A stretch of DNA of 10,738 bases from Candidatus Desantisbacteria bacterium CG1_02_38_46 (GTDB taxonomy: Bacteria; Desantisbacteria; UBA1551; UBA1559), in assembly GCA_001871015.1 (NCBI GenBank), contig MNUO01000018.1, positions 1 through 10,738 of the forward strand, written 5' to 3'. The position numbers and the translations under genes were made by a program. The notes below the pieces were generated by a model. It saw only the letters and a program-made list of their open reading frames with translations. It was not told the DNA's origin and searched no databases. How positions within the stretch are numbered: the stretch's first letter is position 1; every line of letters starts with the position of its first letter. Of the stretch, positions 1,268-6,625 are shown one piece after another.

Positions 1268-1444
1268 TCAAACCTGAAGGTTTGAGTTACGTAACTCAGG
1301 GCTTTAGCCCTGACCTAATCAGACCTGAAGGTCTGAGCTACGTAACTCAGGGCTTTAGCCCTGACCTAATCAGACCTGAAGGTCTGAGCTACGTAACTCA
1401 GGACTTCAGTCCTGACCTGCTGTAACTCAGGGCTTTAGCCCTGA
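1268..1444. repeat. Tandem array of 18-bp palindromes, 51-nt period
   Basis: Three units start at 1268, 1319 and 1370, followed by a partial unit to 1444. Each full unit carries two 8-2-8 palindromes joined by GTTACG/GCTACG and TAAC. The first palindrome is TCAAACCTGAAGGTTTGA (1268-1285) or TCAGACCTGAAGGTCTGA (1319-1336, 1370-1387). The second is TCAGGGCTTTAGCCCTGA (1296-1313, 1347-1364, 1427-1444) or TCAGGACTTCAGTCCTGA (1398-1415). In unit 1 the joining segment is itself a perfect palindrome, GAGTTACGTAACTC (1284-1297). The array fills the 209-bp gap between the two PorV-like genes and ends 3 nt before the stop codon of the upstream one. In RNA the palindromes would form short hairpins with minimal loops; none is followed by a good U-tract. 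Confidence 0.95.
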
Positions 1445-1447
1445 TAT

Positions 1448-2500
1448 TTAAAATATCAAAGAACAAGAAATTGCATGGCTTCCAATTGGATTTTGGCTTA
1501 ATGTCTGCCCGTCCTGCCCAATCAGTTTTTCACCCATAAATGCATAATCTACATTCAGGAATAGAAAAGTAATACCGGCTCCAAGCGTAGGATATTTTTG
1601 ACTTAAACCACCTCTAGCTTTTATGAAACCGAAAAGGCTAATCTCTGCCCCTATTTTCACTTTGTCAAGGAAATCGCCCTGCGAAGAAACTAAATCAGCA
1701 AAGTCCATTGAAAGTGTAATAAAGTTGAGTAACTTTGTGCTTGCACCGATTGTCATATTCGTTGGAACCGTATCACTGCCAATTTTTGAATAGAGGTCTT
1801 TAAACATTACACCCACATCAACAAAACCCAGAACTTTGCAATTCAAACCAGCATCCACTCCCCATCCATGCTGGGGGCTAACGTTAGATGGACTCTTTGA
1901 AGTAACATTCTTTGTTGTGCAATTGACATCAACCTTATACTCTTCAAGCATCCTGTAAACATATTTCAAGTTTACACCATAAGAAAAATCAAGGATGGGA
2001 ATTAACTTGGGCAATTTCCCTGCTATGGTGAGCATCATCCCAACATCTGTACCATAACTCCATGTCTCGCTATACATTGCTCCTGCTAAATCGGCCTGCA
2101 ATAAAAAAGCATTCCTTATTCCATAGACATTTAATGCCCAGGAAGGGTTGAATAATCCAACATACGCAAATCCTTTTGCTGCTGATTTGAGGTCTTTTAA
2201 TTTCTCGCAGTCTGCCTTGGTCAATTTATCATATGCCTTTATGTTCGTAATATAGGTTACTGCATCCTGGTTACCCTTCAAGTAAAGCCCTGGCAGAACA
2301 AGAAGTGAATTTTTCATCTTGGTTAGGCCCGCGGGATTATAAAATACACCTTCAGGACCTTCTGCTACTCCAGTATACGCACCGCCCATTCCATCAGCCC
2401 TGATTCCCTCAGGACTAATTCCCACTGTCTGAGCCCCATGACCAATTCCCCAGACCGCCATCAAACCTACAACCACAAACCCAATTAATCTTTTTAACAT
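1448..2500 (-). CDS. PorV/PorQ-type (UPF0164) outer-membrane protein, second copy
   Basis: The protein has 350 residues from ATG 2498-2500. The frame is open a further 30 codons upstream, but that part is translated repeat (including SAEFTLL). AGGAGG at 2507-2512, 6 nt before this ATG, and the signal peptide right after it settle the start. Signal: MLKRLIGFVVVGLMAVWGIGHGA, with cleavage near A23/Q24. The mature start has GISPEGIRADGMGGAYTGVA (about 27-46) and FYNPAGLTKM (about 53-62), the UPF0164 signature also found in the downstream neighbour. The body shows repeated strand-like blocks, and the chain ends SHAISCSLIF, with the C-terminal phenylalanine typical of outer-membrane barrels. Residues about 125-250 differ strongly from the neighbour, so these are distant relatives rather than a recent duplication. 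A FadL/OmpP1-like transporter is the main alternative. Repeat arrays flank the gene on both sides. Confidence 0.85.
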   Translation of the reverse strand: MLKRLIGFVVVGLMAVWGIGHGAQTVGISPEGIRADGMGGAYTGVAEGPEGVFYNPAGLTKMKNSLLVLPGLYLKGNQDAVTYITNIKAYDKLTKADCEKLKDLKSAAKGFAYVGLFNPSWALNVYGIRNAFLLQADLAGAMYSETWSYGTDVGMMLTIAGKLPKLIPILDFSYGVNLKYVYRMLEEYKVDVNCTTKNVTSKSPSNVSPQHGWGVDAGLNCKVLGFVDVGVMFKDLYSKIGSDTVPTNMTIGASTKLLNFITLSMDFADLVSSQGDFLDKVKIGAEISLFGFIKARGGLSQKYPTLGAGITFLFLNVDYAFMGEKLIGQDGQTLSQNPIGSHAISCSLIF

Positions 2501-2506
2501 CTCCAC

Positions 2507-2512
2507 CCTCCT
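2507..2512 (-). promoter_or_regulatory. Shine-Dalgarno fixing the start of the 1448-2500 gene
   Basis: A perfect AGGAGG on the minus strand lies 6 nt upstream of ATG 2498-2500. It decides against the longer reading frame that runs back through the repeats to 2590. Confidence 0.85.
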
Positions 2513-2524
2513 CGTATAATATAT

Positions 2525-2695
2525 CTTTAGCAGAGTAAACTCTGCACTTCCAGAGTGCCTACTTTTGGCCACTACCAATCTTGGTGTCACTTTAGCAGAG
2601 TAAACTCTGCCACTACCAATCTTGGTGTCACTTTAGCAGAGTAAACTCTGCACTTCCAGAGTGCCTACTTTTGGCCACTACCAATCTTGGTGTCA
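2525..2695. repeat. Three tandem copies of a GCAGAGT-family repeat (65, 41 and 65 bp)
   Basis: The copies are 2525-2589, 2590-2630 and 2631-2695. Copies 1 and 3 appear identical. Copy 2 lacks a 24-bp internal segment (from the second half of the ACTCTGC arm through TTTTGGC). Each starts CTTTAGCAGAGTAAACTCTGC and ends ACCAATCTTGGTGTCA. The 16-bp palindromic cores lie at 2530-2545, 2595-2610 and 2636-2651. The tail holds a second small palindrome, ACCAATCTTGGT (5-2-5). The array fills nearly the whole gap between ahcY and the second PorV-like gene, from 3 nt past the ahcY stop to 12 nt before the Shine-Dalgarno. The identical copies suggest recent duplication. Confidence 0.95.
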
Positions 2696-2698
2696 CCA

Positions 2699-4140
<1,442 letters not shown>

Positions 4141-4141
4141 A

Positions 4142-5338
4142 TTATATTCCTGCTTCTTTGCGCAGGACCTCTGCCATATTGGTCTTTTCCCAGGTAAAAC
4201 CTTCTTTTTCTCTTCCAAAATGACCATATGCAGCAGTCTTTCTGTAAATCGGGCGCAGCAGATCCAGATTCTTTATCATTTCTCTCGGCCTTAAATCAAA
4301 ATGCTTAAAGACAAGATTCTTTATCTGTTCCTCCGGGATTTTATAGGTGCCGTAAGTATTAATTGTCACTGATAGTGGCTCTGCCTTCCCAATAACATAT
4401 GAAATGTGCATCTCGCATCTGTCTGCCAGCCCTGCCTTGACAATATTCTTGGCAACATATCTTGCCATATAAGCTGCAGAACGGTCAACTTTGGTTGGGT
4501 CCTTACCTGAAAAAGCGCCTCCGCCATGAGCGCACATCCCCCCATATGTATCAACGATGATTTTTCTGCCCGTCATTCCAGTGTCACTCTGGGGTCCTCC
4601 TGTCAAAAATTTACCTGTCTCATTGATATGATATTCGGGCTCAACCTTTCGCATCCATGCAGGAATCACTGGCTTGATTACTTTCTCAATTATCTCTTCT
4701 TTTGTTTTGTTGCTCATCCTGCTCGAATTCTTAGGATCAAGAGCTTCTTCAGTATGTTGTACAGCAATTACAACTGACCTTACGCTGAAAGGTTTTTTAT
4801 TTTTGTACTCTACAGTAACCTGAGATTTTCCATCAGGACCCAAATATTTAATTATACCTTTCTTTCTAACCTCTGCAAGGCGCCGCGTCAGTTTATGGGC
4901 AAGAATAATTGGCATAGGCATCAATTCTGGTGTTTCATTAATTGCAAAACCGACCATCATTCCCTGGTCCCCAGCTCCTCCGCGGTTCACACCTAAAGCA
5001 ATATCAGGAGATTGCCGGCCGATTGCATTGAGAACTGCACAGGTTTTATAATCAAAACCATATTTGGCGTCTGTATAACCAATCTCCTTAAGAATATCCC
5101 GCACAAGTTTGTGCAAATCAACGTAACAACCTGTTGTAATTTCTCCGCCCACAATAACCATTCCAACTGTTACAAAGGTTTCGCAGGCAACTCTCACTGC
5201 TTCAACGCACCCATTTTTCCCCTGAATTTCACAGCGCAAGATTTCATCGAGCACTCCATCAGAAATCTGGTCGCAAATTTTGTCCGGGTGACCCTCTGTT
5301 ACCGATTCTGAAGCAAACAGATAATTACCTTTAATCAT
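4142..5338 (-). CDS. metK: S-adenosylmethionine synthetase (methionine adenosyltransferase)
   Basis: It makes SAM from methionine and ATP, releasing phosphate and pyrophosphate, in the cytoplasm as an oligomer. The 398 residues match the normal bacterial length. Conserved motifs: [11 protein letters not shown] (10-20), GAGDQG (121-126, the signature hexapeptide), [19 protein letters not shown] (245-263) and [19 protein letters not shown] (272-290, the nonapeptide and ATP/metal-binding loop); the C-terminal YGHFGRE is also typical. The start ATG 5336-5338 overlaps the TGA of the upstream pyrophosphorylase gene as ATGA, and a strong purine-rich Shine-Dalgarno (AGGAGG, 5345-5350) lies inside that gene, so translation is probably coupled. 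No key residue appears missing. The unusual point is the partner: metK sits in the same transcript as sugar-nucleotide genes, with ahcY next. Confidence 0.98.
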
Positions 5339-6414
5339 TTTTCTCCTCCTCCCAGCTGTACTATTCCATCAAACATTGATATACTTTCAATTACGCGCGC
5401 ATTTTTTCCGATGATACAATTTTTTATGCGCACCCCCTTTCCTATATATGCGTCATCCCATATTATGCAATCCTGCAAAATTGCCCCTTCGTCAACAAAA
5501 GAGTTATTGCCCAATACAGTTGCTCCACTTATTTTGACATTTTTCTTAACCCTGCAATTCTTTCCAATTATAAGTGGGGATGAAAGAAACGCTGATGAGT
5601 CAATTTCGCATCCTTCGCCAATCCACGCTTGTCCACGCCCTCCGAACTTCCCACTGATGCCAACCCACCTACGGGTACCCCCTATCTTCACTCTTACTTT
5701 TCCTTCAAGAATATCCTTGTGCGCCATTCTGTATTGGAGAAGGTTGCCAATATCACACCAGTAGTCAGTTGTATAATATCCATAGATTTTTTTCTTTTTT
5801 TTCAAAAGGAGGGGAAATAGATTTTTAGCAAAGTCAAACTCCTTATTTCGGGGAATATATTTAAGGACTTCTGGCTCAAGCACATAAATACCTGTATTTA
5901 TTCCTCCGGCCATTCCATGAAAAACTTCTCCCCATCCCGGCTTTTCAAGAAAATGGGAAATCTCGCCACCTTTACTTACCGCGGCTATACCATATTCCAG
6001 ACGGGCACTAACTTCCTTCAAAACAATTGTCCCTATGCCGGCTTTTTGTTTATGAAATTTTAACAGTTTTGTTAAGTTGGTATTTGCCAACCCATCTCCA
6101 CTCATTACCAAGAATGTTCCTTTTTTAAAAAAATCCTCTGCTTTCTTAACCCCACCTGCTGTACCCCACGGTTTTCTCTCAAAAGAATAAGTAATATTTA
6201 CTCCCCATTGTTCTCCATTTCTAAAATAATTTTTTATAATCTTGGGTTTAAAATGAAGATTCATAATAATATCCTTTATCCCATGACTCCTCAATAATTC
6301 TATTGTATATTCGAGTACAGGTTTATTTGCTACAGGAACCATAGGTTTTGGAATTGTATAAGTAAGTGGCCTTAATCTCGTTCCAATGCCACCACACATC
6401 ACAATTGCTCGCAT
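5335..6414 (-). CDS. Sugar-nucleotide pyrophosphorylase, probably mannose-1-phosphate guanylyltransferase
   Basis: This nucleotidyltransferase joins a sugar 1-phosphate to an NTP, giving an NDP-sugar and pyrophosphate. The 359 residues have two parts. The N-terminal Rossmann-like NTP_transferase domain (1 to about 235) has [11 protein letters not shown] (8-18), PKPM (22-25), GTAGG (84-88), the metal-binding SGD (105-107), EKP (157-159), [12 protein letters not shown] (173-184) and DYWCDIG (217-223). A C-terminal left-handed beta-helix (about 262-350) follows, with hexapeptide-like turns such as [15 protein letters not shown]. The form without a cofused mutase, ending [14 protein letters not shown], resembles the N-terminal part of bacterial fused GMPP-phosphomannomutases; the mutase here is a separate gene 4 kb upstream. 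GDP-mannose is therefore the best guess, but glucose-1-phosphate specificity cannot be excluded. AAAGGAAG (6421-6428) precedes the start by 6 nt. Its stop overlaps metK. Confidence 0.85.
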
Positions 6415-6446
6415 TTATATCTTCCTTTACAACTCATTAAGAAAAA

Positions 6447-6592
6447 TCAGACCTGAAGGTCCGTAGCTCAGGGCTTTAGCCCTGACATGCTGTACCTCAT
6501 GACTTTAGTCCTGACCTGCCGTAGCTCAGGGCTTTAGCCCTGACATGCTGTACCTCAGGACTTTAGTCCTGATATCAAACCTAAAGGTTTGA
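6447..6592. repeat. Tandem array of 18-bp palindromes, 29-nt period
   Basis: 8-2-8 palindromes start every 29 nt: TCAGGGCTTTAGCCCTGA (6468-6485), TCATGACTTTAGTCCTGA (6497-6514, one arm mismatch), TCAGGGCTTTAGCCCTGA (6526-6543) and TCAGGACTTTAGTCCTGA (6555-6572). A truncated TCAGACCT copy (6447-6461) lies on the left and TCAAACCTAAAGGTTTGA (6575-6592) on the right. GGGC-type and GGAC-type palindromes alternate, and units 1 and 3 are identical including their spacer, so the larger period is 58 nt. The array fills most of the 211-bp gap between the second glycosyltransferase and the pyrophosphorylase. The same family occupies 1268-1444. No terminator with a U-tract and no promoter was recognised in this gap. 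Confidence 0.95.
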
Positions 6593-6625
6593 GTTACAAC
6601 ACTTCTGGTATAATTTCCTTAGCTA

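Follow-up and report, generated by a model that had tools for sequence, protein, structure and literature searches.

Two clusters of short palindromes in the window (the whole 10,738-nt stretch analysed, from Candidatus Desantisbacteria bacterium CG1_02_38_46) are very probably BIME-like arrays of a REP family whose hairpin, formed in single-stranded DNA, is used by a REP-associated tyrosine transposase (RAYT). The units, 23 nt long, non-autonomous and headed by a GTAA or, less often, a GTAG tag, are classed as REP elements because of that tag, their polarity, their arrays with abutting heads, their intergenic placement and their copy number. The preliminary description of this DNA recorded the palindromes and the pairing of their arms, and missed the tag, the orientation, the REP/BIME identity and the unit at 6447. 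What carries the present reading within the genome is the anatomy, polarity, copy number, covariation and mostly intergenic placement of the units.

Anatomy of the units and their arrays

Thirteen units occupy the two sites; eleven are perfect, one (6497) is mismatched and one (6447) is truncated:

1268..1290, minus strand: REP unit, tag GTAA, triplet AAC, loop TC
1291..1313, plus strand: REP unit, tag GTAA, triplet GGG, loop TT; its tag abuts that of the 1268..1290 unit
1319..1341, minus strand: REP unit, tag GTAG, triplet GAC, loop TC
1342..1364, plus strand: REP unit, tag GTAA, triplet GGG, loop TT
1370..1392, minus strand: REP unit, tag GTAG, triplet GAC, loop TC
1393..1415, plus strand: REP unit, tag GTAA, triplet GGA, loop TC
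1422..1444, plus strand: REP unit, tag GTAA, triplet GGG, loop TT
6447..6462, minus strand: truncated REP unit, triplet GAC; foot and tag end absent where the next unit starts, as read from the sequence
6463..6485, plus strand: REP unit, tag GTAG, triplet GGG
6492..6514, plus strand: REP unit, tag GTAC, one stem mismatch (TCATGACT/AGTCCTGA)
6521..6543, plus strand: REP unit, tag GTAG, triplet GGG
6550..6572, plus strand: REP unit, tag GTAC, triplet GGA
6575..6597, minus strand: REP unit, tag GTAA, triplet AAC, loop TT

Perfect 8-2-8 palindromes start at 1268, 1296, 1319, 1347, 1370, 1398, 1427, 6468, 6526, 6555 and 6575. These eleven are the members of the family among the twelve perfect 8-2-8 palindromes of the window, where 0.2 are expected and 200 dinucleotide shuffles yield three at most. 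The 8-2-8 design, described at first as uniform, is perfect in the eleven; it has one mismatch at 6497 and is incomplete at 6447. The latter is a second defective copy (6497 had been taken for the only one), with a shortened right arm that ends at 6462, where the GTAG of the next unit starts.

Written from the tag, complete units read GTAR-CTCA-nnn-CTTYAG-nnn'-TGA (the tag is GTAC at 6492 and 6550), and units that display a GA or AA loop are minus-strand copies of a polar element with loop TC or TT. Behind the tag come the foot (CTCA/TGA), a paired triplet that varies and the constant apex CTTYAG. All four arm pairs quoted in the preliminary description are found in the window. Their arms do change together, but of the eight pairs only the three at arm positions 4-6 take part, whereas TCA/TGA and CT/AG stay the same throughout. 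(Folded as single-stranded DNA, the units have predicted hairpin energies of -4.8 to -6.7 kcal/mol, and for the mismatched unit at 6492..6514 the prediction drops to -0.9 kcal/mol.)

The polarity bears on an earlier suggestion, that of a symmetric protein site, which would here be the 18-bp core bound as duplex DNA by a dimer. The core does have two-fold symmetry, but the element is polar, since just one side bears a GTAR tag and the loop is TY, and a protein reading duplex sequence is not expected to tolerate matched triplet changes. With the association with RAYT genes described below also against it, such a site is extremely improbable.

The window contains other repeats. A second REP-like family, GTAGTGGCAGAGTTTACTCTGC, lies on the minus strand at 1151-1172, 2530-2690 and 3994-4139. 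Its genome holds 82 exact copies, and none is present in two genomes that carry the first family (G001 and G087, below); its triplet, unlike that of the first family, barely varies (GAG in 17 of 18 sampled copies). At 4027-4102 are four 25-nt tandem copies of this family's half unit (CACTCTGCCACTACTGTAATGGTCY), in which the tag side is kept and one hairpin arm is absent. A 24-nt inverted repeat of the GGGACGCTTCTACTTTT type around 41 nt, at 134-222, resembles a miniature element. Copies of the pattern AAAARGGGACGYTTC number 23 in the genome, and G001 has none.

Copy number, placement and pairing in the genome

The assembly to which the window belongs as contig 99 (1.73 Mb, 87.84% complete) holds 262 copies of a pattern in which tag, foot and apex are fixed and the triplet is left free; the reversed control pattern finds none there. 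GTAR hairpins are present in 3 of 145 genomes searched. Several features by which REPs are recognised are found: a 5' GTAG-type tetranucleotide, with a variant fourth base, directly adjoining the hairpin; high copy number with mostly intergenic location (62 of 71 sampled copies lie outside ORFs, although 89% of the sequence sampled is ORF); and arrays of alternating orientation, that is BIMEs, with units head-to-head at 0 or 11 nt and tail-to-tail at 2-5 nt, next to direct arrays. Sixty sampled copies with exact anchors carry GTAA (55) or GTAG (5).

Fifty of 54 placed copies lie between tandem ORFs. This placement would suit hairpins kept mainly for a role in RNA (3' end protection, attenuation or termination), with pairing selected in the transcript locus by locus, and published REPs are thought to be RNA elements in part (PMC3733652). 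Such a role does not account for the polarity of the tag, for the link with RAYT genes in different phyla or for a foot that follows RAYT phylogeny. Moreover, an Rfam search gave no match, and a scan for intrinsic terminators (a GC-rich hairpin with a run of T after it) passes no complete unit, only the truncated one at 6447, at 6463-6448. We regard RNA function as an unlikely main reason for the hairpins; the units may have an RNA role in addition to their REP/RAYT role.

The covariation seen in the window extends over the genome. Sixty copies were sampled from 195 kb of stretches, on contigs picked for holding matches and with anchors outside the triplet; 58 of them are Watson-Crick paired at all three triplet positions, against a mean of 16.6 and a maximum of 27 when the right arms are re-dealt among copies. 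A count by eye over 100 listed copies gives 96 fully paired, each of the other four being mismatched at one position. The preliminary description had proposed this genome-wide check and named mostly uncompensated copies as the contrary outcome; that outcome was sought and is absent. Triplet pairing is likewise found in a genome of the same order (G001; 30 of 31 copies) and in a distant one (G087; 18 of 21).

All 58 paired copies belong to five triplet types (GGA, GGG, AAC, GAC and AAA). Since most copies fall into these five subfamilies, the covariation is largely between subfamilies, and the 262 copies are not independent events. Passage from one type to another could have gone through rare matched triplets such as AGA and AGC, each seen once among the copies listed, and through one-step mismatched intermediates.

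These rare triplets and the very small number of mismatched copies are also what might be seen if one arm were copied onto the other, by template switching or gene conversion within the palindrome and without selection on pairing. Few subfamilies repeated many times are expected if whole units are copied, however, and together with the persistence of mismatched one-step intermediates they make the arm-onto-arm copying proposed earlier unnecessary. Variation is, furthermore, confined to the triplet, with foot and apex invariant, and we consider arm copying very unlikely.

RAYT genes beside the same units

Most telling for the identity of the units is the transposase. The same units flank RAYT genes in relatives of the window's genome, and the foot of the hairpin follows RAYT phylogeny. 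G001 (Ca. Desantisbacteria CG1_02_49_89, of the same order) has two RAYT genes of 159 codons on its contig 23, each with GTAACTCA hairpins on both flanks, as in the window family. Their products, P0001 and P0002, score 99.8 and 94.7 bits against NCBIfam NF047646 (REP-associated tyrosine transposase; cut-off 80) and also pass Pfam Y1_Tnp. P0001 matches the solved TnpArep structure 4er8 (E=2e-7); it has HLH at 71 (the HUH motif) and YIFNNP from Y130. In the alignment Y130 falls on residue 115 of 4er8, which in the E. coli enzyme is the catalytic tyrosine (PMC8266576). Set against the published subclasses in Table 1 of PMC6006769, the motif combination DHLH and YIFNNP gives an exact fit to none of the rows. 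In G087 the RAYT gene is interrupted by TAG, and GTAACTCA-ACC hairpins lie on its flanks. Beside one of the G001 genes (L061, 3640-3770) are two REP-like units with a long loop insert (CTTYTCGAAGATCCGCCAATCTT...GGAGG) and arms that still match.

A cognate RAYT was not found in the window's own genome; with an estimated ~12% of that genome missing from the assembly, its lack there is not decisive. Three Y1_Tnp matches in this genome were considered and rejected, as they are fragments or have other repeats on their flanks, and a search with the G001 RAYT returns only two of the three, at a distant 26-28% identity. One of the Y1 transposase genes (L001) has an in-frame TAA and is flanked by ends that resemble the inverted repeat at 134-222; the other full-length gene (L002, about 1415-2450) has inverted repeats of the GGGTCAGACCTC type on either side instead of REPs, like published TIR-flanked RAYT relatives. 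We infer that the genome has, or had, a cognate RAYT: its gene may lie outside the assembly, or the family may have been orphaned.

The gene order ahcY-metK-NTP transferase is common to the window and G001, with different repeats in the gaps; in the ahcY-metK region, a single REP of G001 stands in the place of the window's second family. A clean empty site was not found in the syntenic gaps of G001, and no insertion was seen directly, the gaps being too diverged for one to be read.

Comparison was extended to 80 related RAYT loci from many phyla. At sixty of them one or more GTAR hairpins lie no further than 300 bp away, and hairpin density falls 26-fold, from 4.82 per kb near the gene to 0.18 beyond 800 bp. 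Where the apex is CTNNAG (49 loci), the foot adjoining the tag is nearly constant within each locus and the triplet is variable, with two or more matched triplets at 29. Full pairing is seen in 177 of 203 copies (within-locus shuffles: mean 104.6, maximum 130); these figures concern the triplet, as the scan demanded a paired foot and is therefore uninformative on foot pairing. On the RAYT tree (a quick tree with many open forks) the foot changes 23 times; 200 shuffles never needed fewer than 34 changes and averaged 37.2. That pairing is maintained, as was first proposed, is thus supported in three genomes and at 49 RAYT loci. (At RAYT loci L126, L137, L143 and L145 of Ca. Bipolaricaulota the hairpins, GTAG-CGTCGNNN with a loop of five bases, are of another design than the CTTYAG type.)

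A foot that is nearly constant within a locus and tracks the RAYT, next to a triplet that varies and stays paired, argues that tag, foot and apex behave as sequence that is recognised and the triplet as a stretch that must pair, in line with published assays of stem mismatches (PMC8266576). In the mechanism that we propose, the tagged strand would fold into a hairpin while the DNA is single-stranded; the RAYT, a small Y1 HUH transposase, would recognise tag, foot and loop and cleave near the hairpin, thereby copying or moving units. Paired hairpins would be the better substrates, so that the subfamilies that spread would have matching arms, and the triplet, read as duplex and not by sequence, would be free to drift in matched pairs. 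A matching transposase probably moves or copies the hairpins in this way.

Known REP systems and the GTAA tag

The family resembles the GTAG-tagged REP superfamily (Di Nocera et al. 2013, PMC3733652) in having a terminal tag on one side, a stem of 6-9 bp and a short TY loop, and in forming sub-families whose stems differ by alternative, complementary residues; dimers and clusters, intergenic location and RAYT association are further points in common. It differs in its host lineage, which is new, and in its mostly GTAA tag, the families being compared by text description. As in the REPs of Stenotrophomonas and other gammaproteobacteria (Nunvar et al. 2010, PMC2817692), inverted units flank the rayt gene and palindromes are preserved, which was read there as selection for complementary mutations; the CTTYAG apex also occurs in the REPs of H. 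influenzae and Thioalkalivibrio (PMC2817692). Those REPs have GT(A/G)G heads, and their feet and hosts differ. As with TnpAREP of E. coli, S. maltophilia and Marinomonas, the putative partner is a Y1 HUH enzyme for which tag and loop would matter, and in perfect-palindrome REPs a stem mismatch lowers cleavage (PMC8266576). E. coli REPs, in contrast, need a bulge (PMC8266576), which is absent from the window family.

Complementary stem changes, TY loops, clusters and RAYT association are already published (PMC3733652, PMC2817692). What is new is the family (by comparison with the text description in PMC3733652), the host lineage, the relative's REPtron and the predominance of GTAA, whose fourth base, A, is the unusual feature; tag variation has been described mainly at positions 2 and 3 (PMC3733652). 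Tag and cleavage dinucleotide are cross-complementary, with CT or CA for GTAG (PMC8266576), so that GTAA predicts cleavage at TT or TA. Flanking dinucleotides were considered as a signal of the cleavage site and set aside: GTAA units often have TA or TT on their 3' side, yet array copies share their spacers and GTAG copies are few. A broader proposal, possible but rather doubtful, is that the RAYT clade with a CTCA foot exchanged its guide tag GTAG for GTAA, with TT or TA as the expected cleavage sites, within a modular code across phyla in which tag and foot are read as sequence, the triplet is read as duplex and CTTYAG is fixed.

The covarying palindromes are thereby explained, and in a candidate lineage that has received little study a REP family is linked to its likely transposase. 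The comparison of 49 loci tells apart the parts of a REP that track the transposase from the part that needs only to pair, and simple cleavage tests follow from it. The GTAA tag is natural variation at a base that has been linked in the literature to cleavage-site choice.
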